Shown here: positions 40,915 to 52,110 of the stretch, in pieces
Layout of the letters: the number at the start of each line of letters is the position of its first letter
Numbering within the stretch: the stretch's first letter is position 1
Assembly (NCBI RefSeq): GCF_002723995.1
Contig: NZ_BEWP01000012.1
Location: forward strand, 1-52,110
From: Gluconobacter kondonii
GTDB lineage: Bacteria; Pseudomonadota; Alphaproteobacteria; Acetobacterales; Acetobacteraceae
Direction of reading: 5' to 3'
DNA length: 52,110 nt
Notes under the pieces: generated by a model
Databases searched by the model: none
Told to the model about the DNA's origin: nothing
Seen by the model: the letters and a program-made list of their open reading frames with translations, nothing else
Translations under genes and position numbers: made by a program

Positions 40915-40951
40915 GCCGGGTTAGCACAGTGGTAGTGCAGCGGTTTTGTAA
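40915..40951 (+). pseudogene. 5' half of host tRNA-Thr (UGU), split by the prophage
   Basis: The sequence gives a perfect first half of a tRNA: acceptor GCCGGGT, TA, D-stem GCAC/GTGC with loop AGTGGTA, anticodon 5' strand GCGGT and full loop TTTGTAA (anticodon TGT). The matching 3' strand ACCGC, T-arm and acceptor ACCCGGC do not follow. Prophage sequence with the integrase begins at 40952. The missing half is expected at the far prophage end, outside the window. Confidence 0.88.
40945..40951 (+). other. Probable attL core (TTTGTAA anticodon loop)
   Basis: These seven bases are the anticodon loop shared by the broken host tRNA and by the phage-borne tRNA-Thr at 42390. Host-like sequence ends and phage-like sequence starts here. 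Just across it, GTAAG/CTTAC forms a 5-bp inverted repeat (40948-40964) that may be an integrase core site. The exact crossover point needs the right end. Confidence 0.65.
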
Positions 40952-40980
40952 GTTTAGCACTTACGAGCGCAAAATCCCCT

Positions 40981-41032
40981 TAAAACCGCACAAAATAGCG
41001 GTTTTATTAGCTCTTGCTCTACGATAAACCGC
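40981..41032. repeat. GCGGTTT motif copies in the phage attachment region
   Basis: Copies of the tRNA anticodon-stem motif in alternating orientation: AAAACCGC (40982-40989), GCGGTTTT (40998-41005), TAAACCGC (41025-41032), in addition to the tRNA copy at 40940. The first two form a 9-bp hairpin with an 8-base loop. They could be integrase arm-type sites. Confidence 0.5.
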
Positions 41033-41077
41033 GACATTAAGCTAGCACGAGTTAAGCACATACGGGACACCTAAAAT

Positions 41078-42385
41078 ATGCCGGTGCATTACGATAGCAA
41101 AGCGCCCTACACGCTGTTTAAGCGAGGCAGTAGTTGGCACATGCGCTTCTCGATTGAAGGGCAAGGACAAGTCCGTCATTCACTGAAAACGAAAGACGAA
41201 CACGAAGCCAAACGACTCGCATTCGAGTTCTATGCAGAAGCCAAGCACAACACCAAACTCGGCCTCAAAGCGAAAACGAAGAGCTTTGACGAGTACATGA
41301 ATATGTTTCTGCGGCAGCTTGAACGCAGAACAGAACAAGGCGTGATCAAAGCTGAACAGTTCAAACGCTTCTATGCGATTCTCGACCGATATGCTCGGGA
41401 GTTCTTCCGGCAGGAAAGCGTTGCACACCTGACCTCAAACAAGGTCACTAGGTACTGGGACTGGCGGAACGCCTACTGGACAGATGGGCCAGGCAAGTCC
41501 GTCACTCACTTAGAATATGAGCGCGATGGCAAACAGGTTCGAATGCCTATCAGCCCTCGATCACGCAAAGCGCCTAGCAGTTCAACGAGAGCTACAGAGG
41601 CACAGGCTCTTCGGGCGTTCTTCACATGGCTCCGAAAAGAAGGTCATACGAAGGAGGTCATCGAAGTCGAGTCGCAGAAGGTGAAACCTAATCCCCGTCC
41701 CGGTTTTACGATGGAAGAGTTTGGCAAGCTGAACGTCATATCGACACGGCGTGCATTAGGTGACCCCGACATTCATCCGAGGATCATGCGGGATCGGTTG
41801 AGGCTTCGGGCTTATATCGAACTGATGGCGTTCTCGGGAATGAGACCACCAGAAGCAGCCAATCTAAAATGGCAGGACATCCATCACTTCAAGCCCGATA
41901 TCGACGGCTACGACGACGAAGCCAGACTGGCTTGCGGCAAGGCAATCCGACTTCATGTGCATGGAAAAGGGAAGAAGCGGCCTATCGTCGCAATGCCCGA
42001 GATATATTGGTCGATCAATCAGCTATGGGGTCTTTGTCGTGAGGAACTGGGAAGAGACCCGGAACCCAGCGAAAGCCCGTTCATCAACAGCCGCGGGAAT
42101 GTGCAGACATCGTTTAGGAATGGCCTGAATGCTTTGTTGGAAGAAGCTGACCTTCTTTACGATTACACCGGAGCGAAAAGGTCGGCTTATTCGTTTCGGC
42201 ACTTTTTCGCCACGCAGATGATTATCGCAGGTGTGCCGTTCTATTCACTGGCTGCGAACATGGGAACAAGTCCCGAAATGCTCCAGAGTTTTTATGTGGA
42301 TGCGACAAGCGAACATCTTGCCCATCAGCTTCAACCCCAGTGGAAGGTTCTTGCTGAACGCCTTGGTGCTGAACTGGAAGATTGA
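41078..42385 (+). CDS. int: Phage tyrosine integrase
   Basis: Tyrosine recombinase of 435 residues that catalyses prophage integration and excision. It has an N-terminal arm-binding domain (YTLFKRGSSWHMRF, KTKDEHEAKRLAFE), a core-binding SAM-like domain (about 70-200) and a catalytic domain with Arg256 (SGMRPPEA), Lys near 298 (HGKGKKR), Arg374-His375 (YSFRHFFAT; the first box II position is Tyr instead of His) and nucleophile Tyr406 (MLQSFYVD). It lies 126 bases inside the attachment site. Its stop is one base from the 3' CCA of the opposing tRNA gene. No excisionase was recognised next to it. Confidence 0.95.
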   Translation: MPVHYDSKAPYTLFKRGSSWHMRFSIEGQGQVRHSLKTKDEHEAKRLAFEFYAEAKHNTKLGLKAKTKSFDEYMNMFLRQLERRTEQGVIKAEQFKRFYAILDRYAREFFRQESVAHLTSNKVTRYWDWRNAYWTDGPGKSVTHLEYERDGKQVRMPISPRSRKAPSSSTRATEAQALRAFFTWLRKEGHTKEVIEVESQKVKPNPRPGFTMEEFGKLNVISTRRALGDPDIHPRIMRDRLRLRAYIELMAFSGMRPPEAANLKWQDIHHFKPDIDGYDDEARLACGKAIRLHVHGKGKKRPIVAMPEIYWSINQLWGLCREELGRDPEPSESPFINSRGNVQTSFRNGLNALLEEADLLYDYTGAKRSAYSFRHFFATQMIIAGVPFYSLAANMGTSPEMLQSFYVDATSEHLAHQLQPQWKVLAERLGAELED

Positions 42386-42386
42386 A

Positions 42387-42462
42387 TGGTGCCGGCGGAG
42401 GGATTCAAACCCCCGACCTTTCGATTACAAATCGACTGCACTATCAGCTGTGCTACGCCGGC
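42387..42462 (-). tRNA. Phage-borne tRNA-Thr (UGU anticodon)
   Basis: Complete class I tRNA on the minus strand: 7-bp acceptor GCCGGCG / CGCCGGC, D-stem GCAC/GTGC, anticodon loop TTTGTAA (TGT), T-stem with loop TTTGAAT, discriminator A and encoded CCA (42387-42389). Base 27-43 is a G-A mismatch; the remaining four anticodon-stem pairs are good. It is about 80% identical to the broken host 5' half. The 19-56 tertiary pair is A-U instead of the usual G-C. It probably replaces the disrupted host gene. Confidence 0.93.
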
Positions 42463-42624
42463 CCAAGCCCGCATCTACTTAGCGTGAGAGCCCCTGTCAA
42501 GCCCGTACAGGGCTCTCCGGCCTCCCCTTTATACTTTGCAGCACAAGAAAGAATAGATCCTGTAGTCCCCTTCAACGATGCACACGGCAATACCTTGCGG
42601 GGCTTTTTAAGCAAACTTAAAACA
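42463..42624. other. Intergenic region upstream of the phage tRNA
   Basis: About 160 bases between the tRNA and the terminator of the leftward operon. It must hold the tRNA promoter reading left. I see no open frame. A small GCAA/TTGC stem followed by GGGGCTTTTT near 42590-42607 may be a rightward terminator for integrase transcripts. Confidence 0.4.
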
Positions 42625-42656: not shown

Positions 42657-43259
42657 TCATAACATAGCCAAGTTCTGGACCACCTTACGATAATCCGTCC
42701 CATCAGCGAGTATGGTTGCAAGATCAGTGTCTTTCAGGCTGTAACCAGCCTTCGCACACTGACCTTTAATCCAAGAAGTCATCTGGTCCACACTGAGGCG
42801 ATTCCAGTGAACTGCTTTGAAACGGCTCACTAGAGCAGGGTCCAACCTTGAGATGTGGTTCGTTGTCAGGATCACAGGAACATTAGTCTCGAGACCGTCC
42901 AACTTGCCTTTCAAGGTCGAAGCTGCAACGGACGCGAAGCAGTCTACCTCATCAATAATCAGAAACCTCTGACCTGTTGAGTTCTGCCCATACATCCGCA
43001 TACCTTCTATTGTGCGCAAAACATCACTTTCCGTGCGACAGTCTGCCGCATTGAGATAAGAGATGTCGTTCTGCGTCTTATGTAGATCGGGGATACGGCT
43101 AAACAACATGGCATAAGCCGCTGAAGTCTTTCCGCTTCCCGGGGGACCTTCAAGCAGGAGCCGGTCAAGGCTCCCGCTTACAAAGGCATCCCCTGCTCTT
43201 CTTGCGGTTGAATGTGGGGGAATGATATCCCCCCACCCGCTCGGCGACCTTATGACCAT
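42657..43259 (-). CDS. Clamp-loader-like AAA+ ATPase
   Basis: AAA+ protein of about 200 residues. Walker A GPPGSGKT near residue 38, Walker B FLIIDEVD near 100, sensor 1 TTNHISRLDP, arginine-finger-type ALVSRFKAVHW, and a small lid domain ending DYRKVVQNLAML. The motif order and the short lid resemble the RFC/T4 gp44 clamp-loader ATPase rather than helicase loaders or DnaA; the C-terminal collar domain of true clamp loaders is missing. The ATG overlaps the upstream stop (TGATG); a GTG one codon earlier is possible. It may remodel or load the phage replication machinery, an inference only. Confidence 0.75.
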   Translation of the reverse strand: MVIRSPSGWGDIIPPHSTARRAGDAFVSGSLDRLLLEGPPGSGKTSAAYAMLFSRIPDLHKTQNDISYLNAADCRTESDVLRTIEGMRMYGQNSTGQRFLIIDEVDCFASVAASTLKGKLDGLETNVPVILTTNHISRLDPALVSRFKAVHWNRLSVDQMTSWIKGQCAKAGYSLKDTDLATILADGTDYRKVVQNLAML

Positions 43260-44092
43260 CACGCCGCTGCCTCTTTTGAAACAGTAGCTTGAGCAGCCAG
43301 TTCATCACGCAACAGGCGATCCTGCTCCTGAGCCTCCGAGATCATCGGTTCGATGAGGTTCTTCTGCCGAGACAGACGAACAACCTCGAACCCCGATCCC
43401 GAAGACCGACAAAGAGCAACCCACAGTCCGTCAATCGGACTGCTCCCATTAACATCTTCCACTTCGAACCTTGCCTTTGCAGGCGCAGTAGCCTTGTAGA
43501 AACGCTCCGCAAACTTACGCTCTCCATTAAGGAGATTGTCGGCCTGCGCTGGGACAGCGACGGGTTTTGTGACGCGACCAGCCTCGTCTTCTCGAACCTT
43601 CTTGATCAACGCATTGAATGACTCGAACTCGCCGAGTTCATTGATCCGCTCTTCCAGCGTGTCGCCCAGTTTGCAGAGATACTCCACACCCTGCTTGAGA
43701 CGTGTCTTCGCAGCACCGCTGATTGCAGCCCCCCCAATGGCTGCCGCATGACCGTTGAGAGCAACGATCACGTGAGCAACATCTAGTTGACGGTTAGGGA
43801 CATCGGTGAGGCTTTTATCGAACGCTTCGCTCTGGTGAGCGAGGAGTCCTTTTCGAACCTCAGGTTCGTCCTGTCGGGAATACAAGGTCAGACAGACAGC
43901 AACCGTCTTGAGCCAACCACTACGAGTTGTATCGAAGCCCTTGTACATCTCGGAAATACCCGAGACGCCGTAAGCAACAAGCTCATCGTAGGGCTGACCT
44001 TTAACAGCCGCCATGTCTGAACGATCGATGATGCTCGACATTGGATTGCTGAGATCCATTGTCGTATTTTTTAGTGAAGATGACTGAGCCAT
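43259..44092 (-). CDS. Phage protein of unknown function, partner of the AAA+ gene
   Basis: 277 residues, not recognised. Mostly helical, soluble, no signal or membrane segment. Visible pieces: an Ala/Gly-rich helix pair (VIVALNGHAAAIGGAAISGAAKTRL), a charged coiled segment (LGDTLEERINELGEFESFNALIKKVRE) and an Ala/Gln/Glu-rich tail (AQEQDRLLRDELAAQATVSKEAAA). AGG precedes the ATG. First gene of a two-gene leftward operon that overlaps the clamp-loader-like ATPase, suggesting they act together. Confidence 0.7.
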   Translation of the reverse strand: MAQSSSLKNTTMDLSNPMSSIIDRSDMAAVKGQPYDELVAYGVSGISEMYKGFDTTRSGWLKTVAVCLTLYSRQDEPEVRKGLLAHQSEAFDKSLTDVPNRQLDVAHVIVALNGHAAAIGGAAISGAAKTRLKQGVEYLCKLGDTLEERINELGEFESFNALIKKVREDEAGRVTKPVAVPAQADNLLNGERKFAERFYKATAPAKARFEVEDVNGSSPIDGLWVALCRSSGSGFEVVRLSRQKNLIEPMISEAQEQDRLLRDELAAQATVSKEAAA

Positions 44093-44518
44093 CGTAACCT
44101 ACTCGAAGTTCATTTCGGGAAAACCCACGAAACGCAAGACTTGATCGGTCTCAGATGCGCGTGTGAGACTCGAACTCACTTCTCGAAAGACGGCCATTCC
44201 GCGCAAGATCGCATCATCGATCTAATGACTTATTGGATTTTCAAAGAACGACGAGCTTCTTTCGTTGCTCGCTTAGGTTGTACAATACATCAGTTTTCGA
44301 TTTCGGGTTGTGGGGTTTTGTTACATTTTGTTCATGTTGATATTTCCAATGTTGGAAGCTCAATGAAGCCCGTAGAGCGCGTTCGGTCCTCCGGGGCAAC
44401 TGCATAGCAGCAAGTCACTAGACCACCCTCAGCGGGCTTCTTAGGGGTATCATCACCCTAAGAACCTGTTAAGAATATTAGAGTAAAACAAGACATCATT
44501 AAACAAAGGTCAAATATC
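44093..44518. other. Divergent phage control region
   Basis: About 425 bases between leftward and rightward phage genes. It should hold promoters for both. One clear hairpin, CTTAGGG / CCCTAAG (7 bp), lies at about 44440-44462. No convincing open frame or repressor gene was found. Confidence 0.5.
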
Positions 44519-44923
44519 ATGGGAAGAGCACCAGCTAAGTTTTCATTCCTCAAAGACGTGAAGTTCGTCACGAAGAAAACGACTGTTCAGAAGTCTCCGC
44601 GAGATGCCTTCATCAACGCCTTGGATAAGCAGATCAGCGCAGTAGAAGCTCTTCGTGATAACGAAGAACTACCCAAGGGTCGCAAGGCCACCCGCCTTTG
44701 GTTCAAAGTGGACTTCGCTGGAAATATCACAACCGACTTGCGTTATGGTAGCAAGACCATTGCTCTTCCCGGTATGACGGCCTCTCAGACGATCAACATT
44801 GGAACGGGGTATGACAATCTCTTGGCCTTCTATGAAAAGGTCCGCGAGAGTGCTCATTCTGGTGAGTTCGATGATATCTTGATCAAGATGTCGCAGGAAA
44901 TATCGAAGCGTCTGGGTCGCTAA
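44519..44923 (+). CDS. Phage protein of unknown function (134 aa)
   Basis: 134 residues, basic N terminus (MGRAPAKFSFLKDVKFVTKKT), then two helices (DAFINALDKQISAVEALRDNEE) and a beta-rich middle (RLWFKVDFAGNITTDLRYGSKTIAL), ending in a helix DDILIKMSQEISKRLGR. AAAGG lies 9 bases upstream. Monocistronic with its own terminator, which suggests strong or independent expression. I do not recognise the family. Confidence 0.7.
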   Translation: MGRAPAKFSFLKDVKFVTKKTTVQKSPRDAFINALDKQISAVEALRDNEELPKGRKATRLWFKVDFAGNITTDLRYGSKTIALPGMTASQTINIGTGYDNLLAFYEKVRESAHSGEFDDILIKMSQEISKRLGR

Positions 44924-44935
44924 CTCGGATACCAT

Positions 44936-44969
44936 GAGAGCCCTGTAGCATCAGCTAGGGGGCTCTTTT
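44936..44969 (+). terminator. Intrinsic terminator
   Basis: Stem AGAGCCCT...AGGGGGCTCT with one bulged G and an inner TAGC/GCTA pairing, followed by TTTT. It directly follows the 134-residue gene. Confidence 0.85.
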
Positions 44970-45011
44970 GTGTAGTTCCAGCTCTCTACAACGCAGTTGG
45001 AGAACATTTTT

Positions 45012-45779
45012 TTATTTCTCCGGCACATGCAGGTAAGGTCGCATAGTATCAACTATATTGGTCTTAAACTCGATTGCAAGTTTTGATTTCTTACTCTCGA
45101 TATCAGCCATATTGGGATTAGCAAGTGCCGGAATACCGAGAAAGGAATCAACTTCTCTGTTCAAGCACACGATCAGAGTCCGGTGCTGATGCCCTAGAAG
45201 TTCATGACACTCTTTTGAAAAATCAAAGAGTACATGATAAACGTCATCGCTATATAGGAACCTAACCCTCTCAAGATCAAGTTCTCTCTTCTTTTTGCTT
45301 TCAACATTATAAACGGAAATACTATCTATTTTCTCGAGAGCCCGTTCCCTGATTGGTCTTATAAATCTAATCTTATCGTCTCCGCTTCTGCTAAATGTAC
45401 GAAGCCTATGATATTCTATATTCTCTTCTTCTGTTAAACGGTAATAGGCCATGATCCCCATAGGAAGGTCATAACAATAGACAAAATGCTCAATGATATT
45501 TTGATAAGCCTCGTATCTTTTATCAAATAGATCCAGCTTTAGCTTAGTGTGAGCGGTGCTCGCTTGTCGCTCGCTCAGCTCTTTCTGGGCTCGAGATATC
45601 TTTAACTGACACCATGCAAAATATCCCGTTACTGCTACGACTATAAGGGGAGATACTGTCTTGATAAGATCAGGCACTTCCTCAGTTCCCATCGAAAGCC
45701 ATATATAAATCCCAACAAATGATGCTGTGCAGATAGCAGCTATAATAACGATATTTTTTTCCATTTGGTCTCGGTTCAT
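45012..45779 (-). CDS. Phage membrane protein with cytoplasmic helical domain
   Basis: About 255 residues from ATG 45779 (GGAG upstream; other in-frame starts at 45830 TTG and 45764 ATG are possible). Two membrane helices near the N terminus (NIVIIAAICTASFVGIYIWL and VSPLIVVAVTGYFAWCQL), then a cytoplasmic helical domain beginning HTKLKLDLFDKRYEAYQNI, a signature common to many uncharacterised membrane proteins with a short hairpin. AT-rich codon use. It stands alone in reverse orientation, so a lysogenic-conversion or superinfection-exclusion role is possible but unproven. Confidence 0.75.
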   Translation of the reverse strand: MNRDQMEKNIVIIAAICTASFVGIYIWLSMGTEEVPDLIKTVSPLIVVAVTGYFAWCQLKISRAQKELSERQASTAHTKLKLDLFDKRYEAYQNIIEHFVYCYDLPMGIMAYYRLTEEENIEYHRLRTFSRSGDDKIRFIRPIRERALEKIDSISVYNVESKKKRELDLERVRFLYSDDVYHVLFDFSKECHELLGHQHRTLIVCLNREVDSFLGIPALANPNMADIESKKSKLAIEFKTNIVDTMRPYLHVPEK

Positions 45780-46100
45780 AGCAGATGGTTTCTCCGTAAC
45801 ATCAGTGGGCAATGTAAAAATACAATCCAAAAGGTCAATGGCACATCTACCGTCGAGCTAGGCATCAGGTAATCATGCTATGGGTACCTGTCTCATCTAA
45901 TATGAAATGTCATCGGATGATTAGGTGTCCTGATCGCTCGATTATTCGTGAGAACTTCCGTGTGGTGTCGTGTCAGTCAGTCGATCAGGGCAATCGCCAT
46001 ATGAGGGTTCAGTTGAGCCTTGATGTCTCTGCTGGTTGATGTTCGGCCATTATATAAGGAGAGCCGTCGGTACTCACCTAGAGATATTTAATAGACACTA

Positions 46101-46119
46101 TTACTACTGTAAGTAGTAA
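46101..46119. promoter_or_regulatory. Palindrome TTACTAC-N5-GTAGTAA
   Basis: Perfect 7-bp inverted repeat with a 5-base centre, in AT-rich non-coding DNA. Its size and symmetry suit a repressor or activator binding site. No protein is assigned. Confidence 0.4.
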
Positions 46120-46127
46120 CAGAGCCC

Positions 46128-46372
46128 GGTAAACACCCCTAGATGAATAACGACAAATCTAAACCGGGCTTGACGCCCACGTCTTTTCGCTTTGCTCAAA
46201 GACGCGTCGCGTCATCCGGGTTATTCGCTTTCGCTCTTTAAAAGACGGACGCCTTCGGCGTGTAGTCGCTCTACGGGCGCTCGCTTACGCTCTGCGCTCC
46301 GTAAGGCTTGCGGCGCAGCCGCATTAATCGCTCGCGCTGAGCGCAGGTAAACCGGGCCAGATGAATAATGAC
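46128..46372. repeat. Direct-repeat-flanked, hairpin-rich GC block
   Basis: Direct repeats GGTAAAC-N6-AGATGAATAAYGAC at 46128-46154 and 46346-46372 (218 bases apart) bracket a GC-rich block. The block has stems ACGCC/GGCGT (46249-46261) and TGCGGC/GCCGCA (46309-46323), a longer AGCCCGGT/ACCGGGCT closing stem (46123-46170), and recurring CGCTTnnGCTC-type words. No protein frame explains it. Confidence 0.65.
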
Positions 46373-46415
46373 GTCCAAAGATGCATCAAAGTATAAATAC
46401 ACATAAGAACAAAAG

Positions 46416-46554
46416 CTGATGGGACCAACCAATGCCATCGCGCATTGGTTCTCATCAGACCTAGTTCACTAAACCTTCTTTCTAAAAGAACCCCTGATGA
46501 GTCCGTGGTTGGTCCCCTCATCAGGGGTTCTGCGCATTTAGAAAGGACTAACCA
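46416..46554 (+). promoter_or_regulatory. Structured leader able to mask the downstream ribosome site
   Basis: Hairpin 1 (46416-46458) carries GGGACCAACCAATG, a near copy of the true start region AAGGACTAACCAATG. Hairpin 2 (46488-46530) has a perfect 14-bp stem and a loop with TGGTTGGTCCC (46506-46516). That loop is fully complementary to the copy in hairpin 1 and, with one G-U pair, to the real ribosome site at 46545-46554. Confidence 0.7.
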
Positions 46555-47010
46555 ATGATTTTACATGAAAACACAGTTGAACTTCTGAAGAAGAAGTTCC
46601 AATCCGCACAAGCATACCAACGCAAAATGAACATCCAGTTCGATCTTACCTTTGAAGATTACAAGAAGCTCTGGATCAAGAACGTTGATGCCCTGACCCA
46701 TTTGAATAATGCGGTCATTTATGCTGTCGAACATCGAATCAACAAAACAATCAAACTCCCATACTGCCTCACATGGAAGCCTGAGTTCGTAAGAACGGGA
46801 TCACCTATGAACATCAAGACAGCATGGATCAGATCAGCAGAGGAATCCAAGAGGGATTGCCGCTTGAAGCAAGGTGAGAAGAAGACCGAAAAAGCTAAGG
46901 CGAAACTTCGCAGACCTAAGGCCCCTTGGAGTGAAGAACGCAAGGCTAATCGTGTAGCAGCGATGAAGGGACGTAAAAGGGGTTCCTACCAAATCAAACA
47001 AGAAACATGA
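46555..47010 (+). CDS. NUMOD3-like/HNH-associated phage protein
   Basis: 151 residues, very basic C-terminal half. N-terminal helical part with FDLTFEDYKKLW, a pattern seen in phage HNH-type proteins. The C terminus PWSEERKANRVAAMKGRKRG resembles the NUMOD3 DNA-binding motif of homing endonucleases, but no HNH or GIY-YIG catalytic motif is visible, so it may be a nuclease remnant or a DNA-binding protein. AAAGGA sits 8 bases upstream. Its leader is unusually structured and can pair with this ribosome site. Confidence 0.65.
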   Translation: MILHENTVELLKKKFQSAQAYQRKMNIQFDLTFEDYKKLWIKNVDALTHLNNAVIYAVEHRINKTIKLPYCLTWKPEFVRTGSPMNIKTAWIRSAEESKRDCRLKQGEKKTEKAKAKLRRPKAPWSEERKANRVAAMKGRKRGSYQIKQET

Positions 47011-47071
47011 AATAGGATACCCCACAAACCATAGTATTACTTGGTTTTTATTCTACATGATATTTTATATA

Positions 47072-47509
47072 TCATATCATACCATTTCCATTAGGCATAT
47101 TTACTATGTAGAACCCATCATCTCTTTTGCTTATAGGATTATTTTCTTTAGTTATCCTCCACAATCTGGTATTTAGATTTTTTCTTTTGTCAGCCCCACC
47201 AGCATCATAGCCATGAATCCTTAGTAAATGCAGTATGCTATCAACATCCATAGGGCCATTCATTTGAATAAAATGTATAACAAAAGCTTCTAGTTCTTTT
47301 TCGCTAATCCTTTGCAACCCATCAGACGGCGTTTCATCGATTTCGTTATTATATATATCATCAAGATATTTGAAAATAGTTTCTATGGAAACTTCACTAT
47401 ACTTAGATAAATCGTATAGCATCTTATCCAACTCAGCCATTTCAGCTTGAAGCTTTCTTCTTCGATTTGCAATATTCTCCATCGCTATCACAAGCGGATT
47501 TTCAGCCAT
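47072..47509 (-). CDS. Winged-helix-like phage protein
   Basis: 145 residues from ATG 47509 (GGGGG upstream). N-terminal coiled coil (IANRRRKLQAEMAELDKML), then a C-terminal domain (about residues 70-140) with helix-helix-strand order, MNGPMDVDSILHLLRIHGYDA, RLWRITKEN and DDGFYIVN, resembling HARE-type winged-helix domains. These often accompany DNA-modifying or restriction proteins. It is AT-rich and transcribed leftward. Possible regulator; function not shown. Confidence 0.6.
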   Translation of the reverse strand: MAENPLVIAMENIANRRRKLQAEMAELDKMLYDLSKYSEVSIETIFKYLDDIYNNEIDETPSDGLQRISEKELEAFVIHFIQMNGPMDVDSILHLLRIHGYDAGGADKRKNLNTRLWRITKENNPISKRDDGFYIVNMPNGNGMI

Positions 47510-47659
47510 ACTTACCCCCTTTGAAGCGCCAAACGCACTCCACAAAAAGCAATAGCACCTACAAATACGGGAACAAATAAAAATCTTAATCCGCGAATAT
47601 GAAGGCTTGCAATCAATCAGGGAGTATGAGACATCTGATCTCGGCCTTAAAAATGAAAA

Positions 47660-47694
47660 AGGCCTGCCCTCGAGTACCAGTCGAAAGCAGGCCT
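47660..47694. terminator. Hairpin, possible terminator
   Basis: 8-bp perfect stem AGGCCTGC / GCAGGCCT with a 19-base loop containing a TCGA/TCGA inner pairing. A-rich before and CGTTTT a few bases after. Lies in a non-coding stretch upstream of the 46-residue gene. Confidence 0.45.
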
Positions 47695-47838
47695 ATCTCG
47701 TTTTGCGGGGCAGCCACTATGTTAGGCATGGCTGTCAAATGCACCGGGTAGTCCAGCGCAGTGTGTTTCAACGCCGCTACGTTACGACATCCCCATGTAT
47801 TGTTCAATGCCTCACACCACCCTAGTGGGAGTAAGAGG

Positions 47839-47979
47839 ATGTCCAAGAAATCCTTTCCGCCCGCACCAGCCGGTTATCGGTATGTGTTTCGCCCTTGGCG
47901 CACATGTCCCATCACCGGCGATAAGCTCTATGCGAAAGCGTATGGCTTGCGTGCGTGGCCCATCTTAGTCGCAGAGTAA
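47839..47979 (+). CDS. Small phage protein (46 aa)
   Basis: 46 residues, MSKKSFPPAPAGYRYVFRPW followed by RTCPITGDKLYAKAYGLRAW and PILVAE. Good ribosome site (GGAGTAAGAGG). Aromatic and proline-rich, one cysteine, no membrane segment. A terminator follows. Not recognised; short proteins of this look are common in acetic acid bacterial prophages. Confidence 0.6.
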   Translation: MSKKSFPPAPAGYRYVFRPWRTCPITGDKLYAKAYGLRAWPILVAE

Positions 47980-47986
47980 GATGGAC

Positions 47987-48020
47987 ATAGAAAACCCGGC
48001 CAACAAGCCGGGTTTTCTAT
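47987..48020. terminator. Bidirectional intrinsic terminator
   Basis: Perfect 14-bp stem ATAGAAAACCCGGC / GCCGGGTTTTCTAT with a 6-base loop; A-run and T-run are within the stem ends. Closes the 46-residue gene and the convergent gene ending at 48105. Confidence 0.9.
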
Positions 48021-48104
48021 TATTTAATAGCCCCGTACAGTGCGGTATAATGTCTCTGTGGTGCATTGTGTGCTGCCCCAGAGAGACGGCGCTATATGGT
48101 GTAC

Positions 48105-48464
48105 TCAGGGTTCAAGAGTACTCTTCTTTTGGGGGCTCGCTGTGGGCGTATAACTTGCAAGATCGGCCTGACGGCTCGCACGCATCACGCATTCTCTCTC
48201 GGTATTTTCCTGCTCCAGAAAAGCCTTGAAGGCAGCAAGATCAATCTCTTTTCTGATAAGTTTCTGATATTCCACCTCGATCCGCTTTGCACATTTTTGC
48301 GCCTCTTCAATGGAAGAAAAGGGACCTACAAGTCTAAATACCGGGGCAACGGAGGTGTCTATGACCCAGAACTGGTCTAGACTAAACCAATATACATTCT
48401 GATCCGTCTCTGTCATGTAAGACGGCTCATCATATCCATATACCTTGAGAATATCGAGTATCAT
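48105..48464 (-). CDS. Phage protein of unknown function (119 aa)
   Basis: 119 residues from ATG 48464 (AGAGG upstream; the longer frame has no ribosome site). Beta-strand N terminus (MILDILKVYGYDEPSYMTET, NVYWFSLDQFWVIDTSVAP), then a helical part (SSIEEAQKCAKRIEVEYQKLIRKEID) and a disordered polar tail. Divergent from the structural operon. Not recognised. Confidence 0.65.
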   Translation of the reverse strand: MILDILKVYGYDEPSYMTETDQNVYWFSLDQFWVIDTSVAPVFRLVGPFSSIEEAQKCAKRIEVEYQKLIRKEIDLAAFKAFLEQENTERECVMRASRQADLASYTPTASPQKKSTLEP

Positions 48465-48601
48465 TGTAACCTCTAATGATGATAAAAAAGTACGATGGGA
48501 TAAGGGATAGAGGCAGTCAATAGGTCTCGATACTTTTATCAATCGCGCCAACTAATCCCTAGCACATAATCCCAATAATCATTGAGATTAAACTTCAATA
48601 A

Positions 48602-48627
48602 ATACCTCAAACAACCATTTGAGGTAT
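48602..48627 (+). promoter_or_regulatory. Hairpin burying the ribosome site of the structural operon's first gene
   Basis: Perfect 10-bp stem ATACCTCAAA / TTTGAGGTAT with a 6-base loop. Its 3' strand contains GAGG, the ribosome site of the ATG at 48631, so the start is masked when folded. It could instead be a DNA operator. Confidence 0.6.
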
Positions 48628-48630
48628 CTA

Positions 48631-48783
48631 ATGAAGATCAAAATCATCAAAACCTATAATCCAAAGTTCGTCGAAGGCATGACATGCGTGGTTCGCCCTC
48701 ATGTCGGATTGCTTCTCGTTGAACAAGGATATGCAGAACTCATCGACGCTTGCGGGCCAGTACCCGACAAGATCACGAAATGA
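48631..48783 (+). CDS. Small phage protein (50 aa), first gene of structural operon
   Basis: 50 residues, MKIKIIKTYNPKFVEGMTCV with VVRPHVGLLLVEQGYAELID and a short tail. Strand-helix pattern, no cysteine pair or membrane segment. Such short proteins often precede head-tail connector genes in myovirus operons. Its stop is 8 bases before the connector start, and GAGGTGAC between them serves the next gene. Confidence 0.65.
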   Translation: MKIKIIKTYNPKFVEGMTCVVRPHVGLLLVEQGYAELIDACGPVPDKITK

Positions 48784-48791
48784 GGTGACGC

Positions 48792-49442
48792 ATGATATCA
48801 AACCTCAGAGGCAACAAGCCTGACCTCGTAGTCGATGTTGATGACCTTATGGACTATTGCATGGTCCTCGACCCCTCACAGACAAGCCTCATTCAAGCCC
48901 TCGCCCAGACGGCTCAAGATTATATCCAAGACATTATCGGTGACTACCTCGTCGCAACACCGATCACATGGGTCATGGCAAAAGATGAAATGTCCCAGAA
49001 TGATTTCTACTTCCGCTCTTTCCTGTCGAACGGCTCAGGTAGCTTTGGCTATGGCTCTGGCGGCGGTCAGTGGATCAATCTGCCAACAGGCGCACAGAGT
49101 ATCGAGAGCGTAACAGCAGCCTTCTGGGGCCAGGGCGAAGTGGCTCTTGTTGAGAACCAAGACTACTTCCCCGATCTCACGACTGATCCTGCTCGTATTC
49201 AGCTTTCATTCTCTTACAACCTCAACGATCTCTACCGAAACCATTCCCATATGGTCGTTCAGTACACAGGCGGCATCGCAGCGGACGCAGCAAGCGTTCC
49301 GACTAGCTTGGTCCTTGCGATTAAGGAAATGACGAAGCGCATGTACAAGAACAGAGGTGCTGATGAGATAAAGCTAACGAATAGCTTTATCGACAGCCTC
49401 ATTTCCCCGCATCAGAGATTCAACTTCGGTGGCCGCCCATGA
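48792..49442 (+). CDS. Head-tail connector protein (gp6/phiE125 gp8-like)
   Basis: 216 residues. The pattern of a helical first half (LVVDVDDLMDYCMVLDPSQT, ALAQTAQDYIQDIIG), a strand-rich middle with a glycine/serine loop (NGSGSFGYGSGGG) and a C-terminal helix (LVLAIKEMTKRMYKNRG) matches the phage connector family typified by phiE125 gp8, which forms the ring below the portal. GAGG precedes the ATG; the next gene overlaps it by 4 bases. Its presence implies that a capsid exists elsewhere in the prophage. Confidence 0.8.
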   Translation: MISNLRGNKPDLVVDVDDLMDYCMVLDPSQTSLIQALAQTAQDYIQDIIGDYLVATPITWVMAKDEMSQNDFYFRSFLSNGSGSFGYGSGGGQWINLPTGAQSIESVTAAFWGQGEVALVENQDYFPDLTTDPARIQLSFSYNLNDLYRNHSHMVVQYTGGIAADAASVPTSLVLAIKEMTKRMYKNRGADEIKLTNSFIDSLISPHQRFNFGGRP

Positions 49443-49813
49443 GCAGTAGCCGCATAGATGAGACGCAGTTCATCCAGAAGATCACCTTCTGGGACTGGGA
49501 GCAGACGGAAACGGAAGACGGTCGGGGCAACTCGTACCAGATGACCAACGCTCGCTACGAATATGGTCAGTTATTCGATGTGAACCCATTCATGGTTGTG
49601 AACGGCGTTCAGGAGAATATGACGGATTACACGAGCATCTTGAGAACTCGTTATAGACCGGACCTCAACTCATTCCAGTACGTCACGCAGGAAGTTCGCC
49701 AGCCAGATCGTTCGGTGATCACTGTTCGATATCAGGTGGTGAGGCTGATGATGGTGGAACAGGAAAACCGATATTTAGAATGTTTCCTAAGTAAACAAGA
49801 TACGGTGAGATAA
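49439..49813 (+). CDS. Head closure / head-tail adaptor protein
   Basis: 124 residues, beta-rich small protein in the position of head-closure proteins (SPP1 gp16 type), directly after the connector and overlapping it by 4 bases. Seen: ITFWDWEQTETEDGRGNSY, YTSILRTRYRPDLNSFQYV and VITVRYQVVRLMMVEQENRY, a barrel-like pattern of alternating strands. Call rests mainly on gene order, size and strand pattern. Confidence 0.7.
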   Translation: MSSSRIDETQFIQKITFWDWEQTETEDGRGNSYQMTNARYEYGQLFDVNPFMVVNGVQENMTDYTSILRTRYRPDLNSFQYVTQEVRQPDRSVITVRYQVVRLMMVEQENRYLECFLSKQDTVR

Positions 49814-50217
49814 TGCCCACGATATCCTTCCAGATAAGCAATCCTGGACAACTGCAAGTCGATCAGAAAGCTCTCAAGAAAGAGCTTCGTGCCATCGGAA
49901 ACGATATCAAGAAGAAGACACAAGCCCTCATTTTAGCCAATGCGAGCACGAGCCCACACGTCGCCAGCAAGCCTGGTCAGGCACCTGCAAGCTGGACTGG
50001 AAGCCTCGCTTTGTTGCTCAAGGTCAGGATTAAAGGGAACAGGGTCACACTCATCGACACGGCACGACAAGCGAAAGCACTGGAAGCCGGAGCAGCCCTG
50101 AACAACGGGTCAAAACTTGAGGCCCGCCCTTACCTATCGACCGTCTTTGAACAAATGAAACCCGAAATCGAGAAGCGCCTAGAAAATGCCCTGAAACTTA
50201 CAAAGGTGGATAAATGA
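49813..50217 (+). CDS. HK97 gp10-like tail-joining protein
   Basis: 134 residues. Helical N-terminal half (QLQVDQKALKKELRAIGNDI, KKKTQALILANASTSPHVAS) followed by the APASWTGSLALLLKVRIKGN strand region and a C-terminal RPYLSTVFEQMKPEIEKRLE helix; this fits the HK97 gp10 family. Its ATG shares one base with the preceding stop (TAATG). Likely part of the neck between head closure and tail tube. Confidence 0.78.
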   Translation: MPTISFQISNPGQLQVDQKALKKELRAIGNDIKKKTQALILANASTSPHVASKPGQAPASWTGSLALLLKVRIKGNRVTLIDTARQAKALEAGAALNNGSKLEARPYLSTVFEQMKPEIEKRLENALKLTKVDK

Positions 50218-50780
50218 ACCCAATCCTAAGATGCGTTGACGTTATCAAGCAGATCAGAACAGACACGCGATATTTCACGAAGGTATCTGGTATCGGCGAC
50301 ATCAGCCGAATGATGAACCAACAGAACATTAAACAGAGTGACATGCCATTTTGCGGCGTGTGGATACCGAACGTCACGGCTACTGAAAATCAGAACATGC
50401 CGGGATACCTAGCACTTGAGACAACCACGTTTCAGTGTGTTGTCGTCCTCAATATGGAAAGCGACGATACGGGTTATCAGTCTGCCAGTGACGCATATGA
50501 CCTAGCTAGAACAGACCTTCGCAAATGCCTGATGGGTTGGGACCCGACACCCGATCGAAGCAATGGCTATCCCATGCAGTTTGAAAGCGGCTCGATCGTT
50601 GGTTCTCTCGATAGCTCAAACTCGCGCGCTGTCTACTCATTCGATTTTACTCTCACATACACGATTACAGAAGAAGACGGATATCAAGAAGGCAGCACTG
50701 ACCTTATCGAAATAGATACAACCATGCCCAATAACGGATCTACTACCATTTTCCCCAACATCATTAATCCAACTAAATAA
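50214..50780 (+). CDS. Tail terminator/completion-like protein
   Basis: 188 residues overlapping the previous gene by 4 bases. N-terminal helix (ILRCVDVIKQIRTDTRYFTK), a strand pair (FCGVWIPNVTATENQNMPGY; TTTFQCVVVLNMESDDTGYQ), a helix (ASDAYDLARTDLRKCLMGWD) and YSFDFTLTYTITEEDGY strands. This fits the tail terminator/gp37-type slot directly before the sheath. Assigned by position and fold pattern rather than by motif. Confidence 0.65.
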   Translation: MNPILRCVDVIKQIRTDTRYFTKVSGIGDISRMMNQQNIKQSDMPFCGVWIPNVTATENQNMPGYLALETTTFQCVVVLNMESDDTGYQSASDAYDLARTDLRKCLMGWDPTPDRSNGYPMQFESGSIVGSLDSSNSRAVYSFDFTLTYTITEEDGYQEGSTDLIEIDTTMPNNGSTTIFPNIINPTK

Positions 50781-50830
50781 AAGAGGTTAAACCCATTCAT
50801 CTTTTATGATCATTTAAGGAGATATTCCAT

Positions 50831-51946
50831 ATGAGTATATCAAATATTCCAGAGTCCTTTCCGCTACCGGGGACATGGATTACGATTTCATCAACAGGTG
50901 GTGTAGCGTCAACGACCTATCAGGTCGTTCTCGTTGCAACATCTTCGACAGGCAACACGAACACGCCTGTTCTCGCTGGATCGCTTGCGGACGTAGCATC
51001 AGCGTTCGGTTCAACTTCGGACATCTATAAGGGTTATGCCCGCTATCGTTCCGTTGACACCGTGACGCCTGTTTATCTCGTAAACGCAGCATCCGACTCA
51101 GCAACCGACATCACTGCCGCTCTAACAAGTCTCGGTGACATTCCTGCAAACCTCTTCATCACTCCGTTTGCGACAAGCGACGCCGTAAAAGCCTTTGATA
51201 CTTTCTTGGCTTCACGTTGGGCTTACAACAACGGCCTAGACGGTATCCATGTGACAGCCATTGCAGACAGTATGGCTAACCTCGTTGCCCTTGGCTCCAC
51301 GGTAAACAGCCCATATTCGAGCGTTGAAGGTTTTGCTCCAGGCGGAACAGATTCTGACATTGAACTTGCCGCAGCAGTCGGTGCAGCCGTTGCCGTGAAG
51401 GCGAGTGCAGACCCTGCAAATCCTATTCAGGGCATCGCCCTAGCCGTAGCAGCCGCTCCACTAGGAAACGCATTCAGCCAGAGCGCAAGAGAAGCAATCT
51501 TTAACGCTGGTATCGGTATTACCAAGCAGGATACTGCCGGTAATGTTTACCTAGAACGTCCTCGTATGACCTATCAGACGAACGCAGAAGGCACGGCTGA
51601 CGACAGTTATCAGGACATCGAAGCGCTCAACATTCTTGCGTATGTTCGTACGAAGCTACAGGCACGCTTGAACTCACGCTTCTTCGGTGAAAACTCCAAG
51701 AAGCTCGTTGACAATGACACGATGATTTATCCGGGAAGCAACGCTGTTAACCCGAATATCATCTTGTCCGAGATCATCGCTGACTACAGCGAGAACGTGG
51801 ACAATCTGTTGTGTCAGGACCTTGCGACATTCCTCAAAACAGCTTCGGCAAGAATCGTTCGTACGGGCGTTGTTGAAGTCTACTACCCAGCAAAGATCGC
51901 AGGCGTTCTACGTCAGATCACTGTTGGCATTCAGTTTTCTAAGTAA
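50831..51946 (+). CDS. Mu-type contractile tail sheath protein
   Basis: 371 residues, shorter than Mu gpL (about 495), so it lacks part of the surface domain. Sheath signs: the N-terminal IPESFPLPGTWITISSTGG arm and the C-terminal conserved core with NAGIGITKQDTAGNVYLERP, RMTYQTNAEGTADDSYQDIE, YVRTKLQARLNSRFFGEN and a final strand GVLRQITVGIQFSK. Contraction of this tube drives DNA injection. AAGGAG precedes the ATG. The tail tube gene follows directly, so the phage is a myovirus type. Confidence 0.88.
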   Translation: MSISNIPESFPLPGTWITISSTGGVASTTYQVVLVATSSTGNTNTPVLAGSLADVASAFGSTSDIYKGYARYRSVDTVTPVYLVNAASDSATDITAALTSLGDIPANLFITPFATSDAVKAFDTFLASRWAYNNGLDGIHVTAIADSMANLVALGSTVNSPYSSVEGFAPGGTDSDIELAAAVGAAVAVKASADPANPIQGIALAVAAAPLGNAFSQSAREAIFNAGIGITKQDTAGNVYLERPRMTYQTNAEGTADDSYQDIEALNILAYVRTKLQARLNSRFFGENSKKLVDNDTMIYPGSNAVNPNIILSEIIADYSENVDNLLCQDLATFLKTASARIVRTGVVEVYYPAKIAGVLRQITVGIQFSK

Positions 51947-51968
51947 AACATTTTAAGGAGAAATATAA

Positions 51969-52110
51969 ATGGCTTCACCTACATCAGTTGGCATTTCCAA
52001 CTTTGCTATCAACGGGATTGCTCTAGCGATCCCTCAGGATGCAGAGCTTACCTACAGCATTCCCGTTAATAAGCGCGAATATCTTAACTCTATGCAGGGC
52101 GTTGAAAATA
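51969..52110 (+). CDS. Tail tube protein, cut by the window edge
   Basis: Partial: the first 47 codons, MASPTSVGISNFAINGIALA with IPQDAELTYSIPVNKREYLN and SMQGVEN. Gene position right after the sheath and this strand pattern fit the Mu gpM-type tail tube family. AAGGAGAAATATAA precedes the ATG. The rest lies beyond the right edge. Confidence 0.75.
   Translation, partial: MASPTSVGISNFAINGIALAIPQDAELTYSIPVNKREYLNSMQGVEN

Follow-up and report, generated by a model that had tools for sequence, protein, structure and literature searches.

We analysed a window of 52,110 bp from a Gluconobacter kondonii draft genome of 3.27 Mb; the window is contig C12 in full. Host DNA runs up to position 40951, where a tRNA-Thr(UGU) gene is interrupted 3′ of its anticodon loop. 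The 5′ half that remains (40915..40951, + strand) matches bases 1-37 of the joined 75-nt gene at 100% and ends in TTTGTAA (40945..40951, + strand), the 7-nt anticodon loop. Phage DNA follows, with an ORF for a tyrosine integrase of 435 aa (41078..42385, + strand; PF00589, E 6.9e-9; phrog_1 integrase, E 3.5e-29). One base beyond the integrase stop, and convergent with the integrase gene, lies a complete phage tRNA-Thr(UGU) with an encoded CCA (42387..42462, - strand; ARAGORN; Rfam tRNA 64.7 bits), which agrees with the broken host gene in isotype and anticodon. This arrangement of half gene, integrase and adjoining complete tRNA had been described in a first-pass annotation of the sequence, and each element was confirmed.

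A promoter-like site, TTGACA-17-TAGATG (42472..42500, - strand; 9/12 matches), is located 9 nt before the replacement tRNA. TTGACA-N17 is also found 11-12 nt before the phage tRNA in a second Gluconobacter element (G399) and in the Acetobacter prophages described below; the DNA upstream of these tRNAs differs, yet each has TTGACA, a 17-nt spacer and a hexamer starting with TA, again with 9/12 matches. In a control, 78 of 2000 mononucleotide shuffles reached at least 9/12. The tRNA-Lys of G300 (see below) scored only 7, like the shuffles, and a stricter promoter scan did not list the 42472..42500 site and returned no more sites than chance. The recurring arrangement fits expression independent of the lytic genes, but it is a pattern only. 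Just 3′ of the broken half, the phage side carries a hairpin, TTAAAACCGC-acaaaata-GCGGTTTTAT (40980..41007, + strand), and a 69-nt stretch including it folds at -16.7 kcal/mol, a value obtained with no shuffle control. A terminator scan did not list this hairpin, which may serve to halt transcription that starts at the host tRNA promoter.

The window stops inside the prophage. The same prophage is present on one contig in Gluconobacter cerevisiae LMG 27748 (G302; locus L082), where it measures 37,130 bp from core to core, and the prophage of the window is given as ~37 kb. C12 aligns to the first part of the G302 prophage and contig C17 to the remainder, at 99%, and the two meet at contig ends. 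The left arm (42657..52110), colinear with G302, carries PHROGs matches for a clamp-loader-like gene, a head-tail adaptor, a neck protein and a tail sheath, among others, and the prophage continues on C17 with matches for baseplate, portal, terminase and major head genes. Over the 20 proteins scanned, terminase, portal, major head, tail sheath and baseplate were matched, and tail fibre weakly; from these matches we classify the prophage as myovirus-like. The gene that adjoins the integrase-tRNA cassette (42657-43262) has clamp-loader similarity (phrog_168, E 2.5e-15). A weak match to the Pseudomonas rnk leader family at 47937-48024 (30.6 bits; gathering 55) is probably due to chance.

At the other prophage end, the 3′ half of the host tRNA-Thr(UGU) was located at C17:16705-16749 (- strand), joined to phage DNA. 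The first-pass annotation had predicted TTTGTAA joined to ACCGC at this end; the predicted half was found, but it reads TTTGTAA-ACCGA, and the first anticodon-stem pair is G.A in the host and phage tRNAs alike. Comparison of attL and attR in the window's genome, G302 and G399 showed that TTTGTAA is the sole sequence common to both junctions and that the tRNA is rebuilt at neither, including the integrase-distal one, as had been supposed. In all, both junctions were read in five genomes, three of Gluconobacter and two of Acetobacter, each with a 7-bp core and an unrebuilt host tRNA.

An Rfam tRNA search of the whole draft assembly returned 42 tRNA genes. The one intact Thr(UGU) among the typed genes was the phage copy, and the other Thr tRNAs were GGU and CGU. 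No second intact tRNA-Thr(UGU) was present among the 42 genes found in the draft assembly, in agreement with the expectation that the host holds no complete copy elsewhere. Since tRNA-Ala(UGC) and tRNA-Ile(GAU), whose genes are usually located in rRNA operons, are likewise missing from this set, an overlooked Thr(UGU) copy is unlikely but not impossible. By the decoding rules, ACA is read by neither Thr(GGU) nor Thr(CGU). In a set of 17 mechanical ORFs of 300 aa or longer that do not overlap (8630 codons), 66 codons are ACA, and a thyX-like ORF next to the right junction has three. The broken host tRNA thus appears to be single-copy and irreplaceable, which in a draft assembly is not absolute, and the decoding rules would make it essential. 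Elsewhere in the same genome, a group I intron match of 47 bits was recorded at C7:181173-181384; the group I intron loci read in relatives lay in tRNA-Arg(CCU) in 23 of 30 cases.

Comparison with other Gluconobacter genomes

tRNA-Thr(UGU) was found in all 26 Gluconobacter genomes, as a full 75-nt gene (93-100%) in 23 and split in three. The phage tRNA was present in exactly the three split genomes (the window's genome, G302 and G399), and neither feature occurred alone. The first-pass annotation had reasoned that prophage-free strains should lack the phage tRNA at this spot and had suggested a comparison of attB; the phage tRNA was missing from all 23 genomes with an intact host gene, and the window's host flanks lay beside the intact gene in these genomes, the left flank in 22/23 and both flanks in 14/23. 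Two of the 23 gave a second match of lower strength: G403 has a decayed 3′ half, and G250 an untyped match of 75%. The decayed half (L196:1870-1915, contig C4 of G403) is present in addition to the intact copy and is possibly a relic junction.

The integrase of G399 is 51% identical to that of the window and is inserted in the same core. The tRNA gene of G399 is identical to the window's phage tRNA (78-bp 100% match), and the two elements differ in their phage-side flanks at both junctions; about 0.7 kb of the G399 element aligns with the G302 prophage within the ~20 kb compared. An identical tRNA in otherwise diverged elements points to selection on the tRNA, or to its exchange. Scans of viral contigs with the G399 integrase and with the phage tRNA pattern yielded no relatives. 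The window integrase gave no tblastn match among 50,697 phage records, and a search at E 1e-50 of 385 genomes sampled from the whole class retrieved the window's own integrase alone.

Acetobacter prophages

Integrases 68% identical to that of the window were found in Acetobacter lambici (L083), Acetobacter lovaniensis (L084) and an IMG/VR contig (L087). In A. lambici and A. lovaniensis, the break in the host tRNA-Thr(UGU) falls at CTTGTAA, exactly the loop, and the 3′ half is on another contig. Among 49 Acetobacter genomes, 29 had a close copy over the full length (in one case from base 3) and two a split gene; the rest comprised five untyped 80% matches, one copy cut by a contig end and 12 genomes with no match at the threshold used. 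The two split genomes were the same two that carry the 68%-type integrase with a tRNA-Thr(UGU) behind it. Here, co-occurrence compares the split with the 68% integrase across the 49 genomes, the phage tRNA having been read at the integrase loci.

The Acetobacter-type phage tRNA-Thr(UGU), located 3′ of the integrase gene, has an insert of 215-221 nt in its anticodon loop. Because this insert interrupts the loop, a scan run without an intron option misses the gene. Rfam Intron_gpI (gathering 50) scored 50.7 for the IMG/VR contig, 48.5 for A. lambici and 45.6 for A. lovaniensis, the latter two just below threshold. The joined exons fold as tRNA-Thr(UGU) in ARAGORN. The insert was present in 3/3 Acetobacter-type phage copies, and the 29 host tRNA-Thr(UGU) genes match over their full length without gaps. 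As the exons equal the host gene over an unbroken 32-base run across the anticodon arm, the Acetobacter replacement minus its intron would be a host-like attB itself. Viral-contig scans with an intron junction pattern and with profile A1 returned the known IMG/VR contig only. Two Acetobacter genomes have a second, divergent intact tRNA-Thr(UGU) (L193:1715-1789 in G423; L194:2363-2437 in G435), one of which adjoins tRNA-Pro; these copies are possibly borne by mobile elements.

The alternatives to tRNA replacement can be weighed against these data. Phage tRNAs have been proposed to serve lytic growth, either by supplying codons or by allowing escape from tRNA-cutting defence (PMC10865867), in which case the anticodon match would be coincidental. 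We regard this as very improbable here: the anticodon matches the broken gene wherever both were read, namely Thr(UGU) in five genomes (three Gluconobacter, two Acetobacter) and Lys(UUU) in G300, and the phage copy is the sole intact Thr(UGU) found in the window's genome. A lytic role would also leave the co-occurrence to coincidence, split gene and phage tRNA being together in 3/26 Gluconobacter genomes and never alone, and split gene and 68% integrase in 2/49 Acetobacter genomes. Still more remote is the idea that transcripts of the two host halves are joined in trans, or that a junction still yields a tRNA; ARAGORN detects none at the left junction, and the phage-side flanks of both junctions differ between the window and G399.

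Other integrase loci and phages

Besides the window type, 35 integrase loci were fetched, and 22 relative loci were drawn from them. An intact tRNA upstream of the integrase gene, the canonical integration outcome, was found at 11, a split tRNA at three and neither at eight. The three split loci were the Acetobacter pair and L062 in G300, a genome of a third acetic-acid genus whose integrase is 36% identical to that of the window. L062 has the 5′ half of a tRNA-Lys(UUU) only; the 3′ half, where the core is 9 bp long (ACTTTTAAT), lies at a distance of 39 kb. A second tRNA-Lys(UUU) ends 122 bp before the core at the 3′ half. It differs from the host gene by one base across the whole tRNA and carries a 208-nt insert in its anticodon loop, which matches Rfam Intron_gpI at 29.5 bits (below gathering; E 1.3e-4).

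A blastn search of phage records with the Acetobacter intron-bearing tRNA matched Gordonia phage Daredevil (79.6% over 108 bp, E 5e-18). Beside the Daredevil integrase, ARAGORN detected a tRNA-Lys(UUU) that is missing from the annotation and contains a 238-nt intron-like insert (L233:5840-6151; NC_048021.1). The Rfam model gave a partial match of 15.4 bits (E 0.12) in a narrow search and nothing at E 1 in a wider one, and the intron call is based on blastn, ARAGORN and an intron alignment that shows shared core blocks. Once joined, the anticodon arm of this tRNA would have 16 bases in common with the attP of Daredevil itself. Against a working gene stand the clear plaques of Daredevil, a T-loop (ATCGAAA) that we take to be unusual, and the low Rfam score. 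The replacement tRNA of Daredevil apparently has a group I-type intron in its anticodon loop, as those of the Acetobacter prophages and G300 are predicted to have; for the sister prophages in Acetobacter, the intron is predicted to be self-splicing. Daredevil was reported without a phage tRNA, and a figure legend gives tRNA-Ile2-CAT as missing (PMC10865867).

The blastn search matched 309 phage records, a minority of which were inspected. In Agrobacterium phage Atu_ph07 (MF403008.1; 490 kb), ARAGORN places a 278-nt intron-like insert in a tRNA-Leu(UAA) that is missing from the annotation (L234:1452-1813); Rfam gave no intron match for it at E 1. Achromobacter phage Mano, a phage of a betaproteobacterium, has an intact tRNA-Lys(UUU) about 125 bp from its integrase start (L235:5999-6073) and is a candidate for tRNA replacement. 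The intron-like matches in Pelagibacter and marine-plankton phages lie between pieces annotated as capsid protein and were rejected as tRNA introns; those in Pseudoalteromonas and Alteromonas lie between hypothetical genes.

Self-targeting of the replacement tRNA

A replacement tRNA is a potential second attB for the phage's own integrase. A related possibility has been raised by the authors of PMC10865867, who speculate that a second plasmid may integrate into a plasmid's own tRNA. The phage tRNA of Gluconobacter is intron-free, and its anticodon stem differs from that of the host at 6/10 bases, compared with 8/59 in the rest of the tRNA, loop excluded (Fisher p 0.003, by base). These stem changes are three double, pairing-preserving changes; counted by pair, the excess is 3/5 vs 2/16 (Fisher p 0.06). 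The loop, and with it the core, is unchanged in the window's phage tRNA, which has 8 bp in common with attP, one more than the host attB. Since core loop and 8 bp are kept, stem recoding may not abolish recognition of this tRNA by the integrase. In the intron-bearing tRNAs, where the intron lies in the loop, the anticodon arm is unchanged relative to the host gene in Acetobacter and G300, and nearly so relative to its own attP in Daredevil.

Eight intron-free actinophage tRNAs were compared in the same way, with attP located by the loop sequence and Boilgate serving as a canonical control without a tRNA. Those of Cain, Mollymur, OneUp, SpeedDemon, DatBoi and Bantam keep 9-11 bp in common with attP, and those of BrutonGaster and Cheetobro the 7-bp loop only. 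Universal shielding was dropped as an explanation on the basis of the six that keep 9-11 bp.

We consider it about an even chance that replacing phages must keep their integrase off the replacement tRNA and that some of them achieve this either by recoding the anticodon stem, as in the window, or by a group I intron inside the core, the intron occurring with at least three integrase lineages (Acetobacter tRNA-Thr, G300 tRNA-Lys and Daredevil tRNA-Lys) and the Daredevil tRNA having been overlooked. Only somewhat less probable is a neutral reading in which neither feature acts against self-integration, the introns being selfish group I introns of the ordinary kind and the stem differences a mark of foreign origin. 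Neutrality would accommodate the six of eight intron-free actinophage tRNAs that keep 9-11 bp in common with their own attP, as well as the weak excess of Gluconobacter stem changes by pair. It would less readily account for the insert being in 3/3 Acetobacter-type phage copies vs 29 ungapped host genes, or for the retention of the target anticodon arm in the intron lineages (a 32-base run in Acetobacter, one difference in G300, 16 bases vs attP in Daredevil), while the intron-free Gluconobacter copy changed 6/10 stem bases vs 8/59 elsewhere. Shielding of the replacement by an intron or by stem recoding is thus suggested by tRNA anatomy, most strongly for the intron lineages. If it is real, a group I intron would give a concrete benefit to its carrier.

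Discussion

Our preferred reading, to which we assign a probability of roughly 0.93, is that a temperate prophage breaks the only host tRNA-Thr(UGU) found and supplies its own, in the manner of tRNA-dependent lysogeny. The tyrosine integrase would insert the prophage in the anticodon loop of tRNA-Thr(UGU), the 7-bp core being the loop itself, and integration splits the gene, which neither junction sequence restores. ACA codons would then be unreadable by established decoding rules, and because of this, survival of the cell would depend on the complete tRNA-Thr(UGU) of the prophage, presumably expressed from its own promoter-like site while the prophage is silent. The replacement would also have to escape its own integrase, and may do so here through the recoding of much of the anticodon stem, of which the attB arms consist, and in the sister prophages through a group I-type intron. 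Those features of tRNA-dependent lysogeny that sequence can test are seen in the window element; that the phage tRNA is needed for lysogeny is suggested by analogy. The first-pass annotation had proposed a tRNA-replacement system of this kind, and the proposal is supported, with no second host gene found, no junction rebuilt and no phage tRNA in the strains with an intact site.

With the window element, industrial Gram-negative bacteria offer a clear-cut natural example of tRNA replacement: the empty site is available, and so is a second element at that site which is largely different yet has an identical replacement tRNA gene. Comparison among these elements exposes a self-targeting problem that would face every such phage, to which an intron inside the attachment core is a likely answer. 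Scans run without an intron option miss replacement genes of this type, which bears on published negative calls such as that for Daredevil.

The mycobacteriophage precedent to which the first-pass annotation had pointed is in print: tRNA-dependent lysogeny was named in 2024 for mycobacteriophages (PMC10865867). The Mycobacterium and Gordonia phages described there (Fionnbharth, Gaia and others) resemble the window element in their tyrosine integrase, unrebuilt tRNA and phage tRNA of the same anticodon. In Cain and Mollymur the tRNA is near the integrase gene, as it is here, and in Gaia it is downstream of it (PMC10865867). The core within the tRNA gene is 8-17 bp in those phages, compared with 7 bp in the window element, which, unlike the phages as PMC10865867 presents them, belongs to another phylum, uses Thr-UGU, has a stem recoded relative to its own host gene and has sisters with an intron.

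The window element is not the first case outside actinobacteria, since prophages of Sinorhizobium meliloti have been published that inactivate tRNA-Leu(UAG) and supply a substitute for it (PMC11476347). That system is likewise alphaproteobacterial, with a supplied Leu(UAG) of foreign type; it differs in the tRNA concerned, and the word "intron" is missing from the main text of PMC11476347. Lactobacillus johnsonii prophage Lj965 (cited in PMC10865867) also leaves its tRNA unrebuilt and carries a cognate tRNA, in this case in a Firmicute host. For acetic acid bacteria themselves, a temperate phage has been described with an undisrupted tRNA-Ser site.

With tRNA replacement already known, the novelty lies in the intron-bearing replacement tRNA of the sister prophages. 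A 2014 review stated that all phage introns observed by then were in protein genes, despite the many phage tRNAs, and among the open-licence matches listed we recognised no paper that ties a group I intron in a phage tRNA to lysogeny or to att sites. The closest idea is that of Randau and Soll (cited in PMC4390854), in which tRNA introns protect genes from integrating elements by breaking up the target, as the intron may do here. Their proposal, as given in that review on archaea, concerns the host's disrupted tRNA genes, whereas here a group I-type intron lies in the element's own tRNA.
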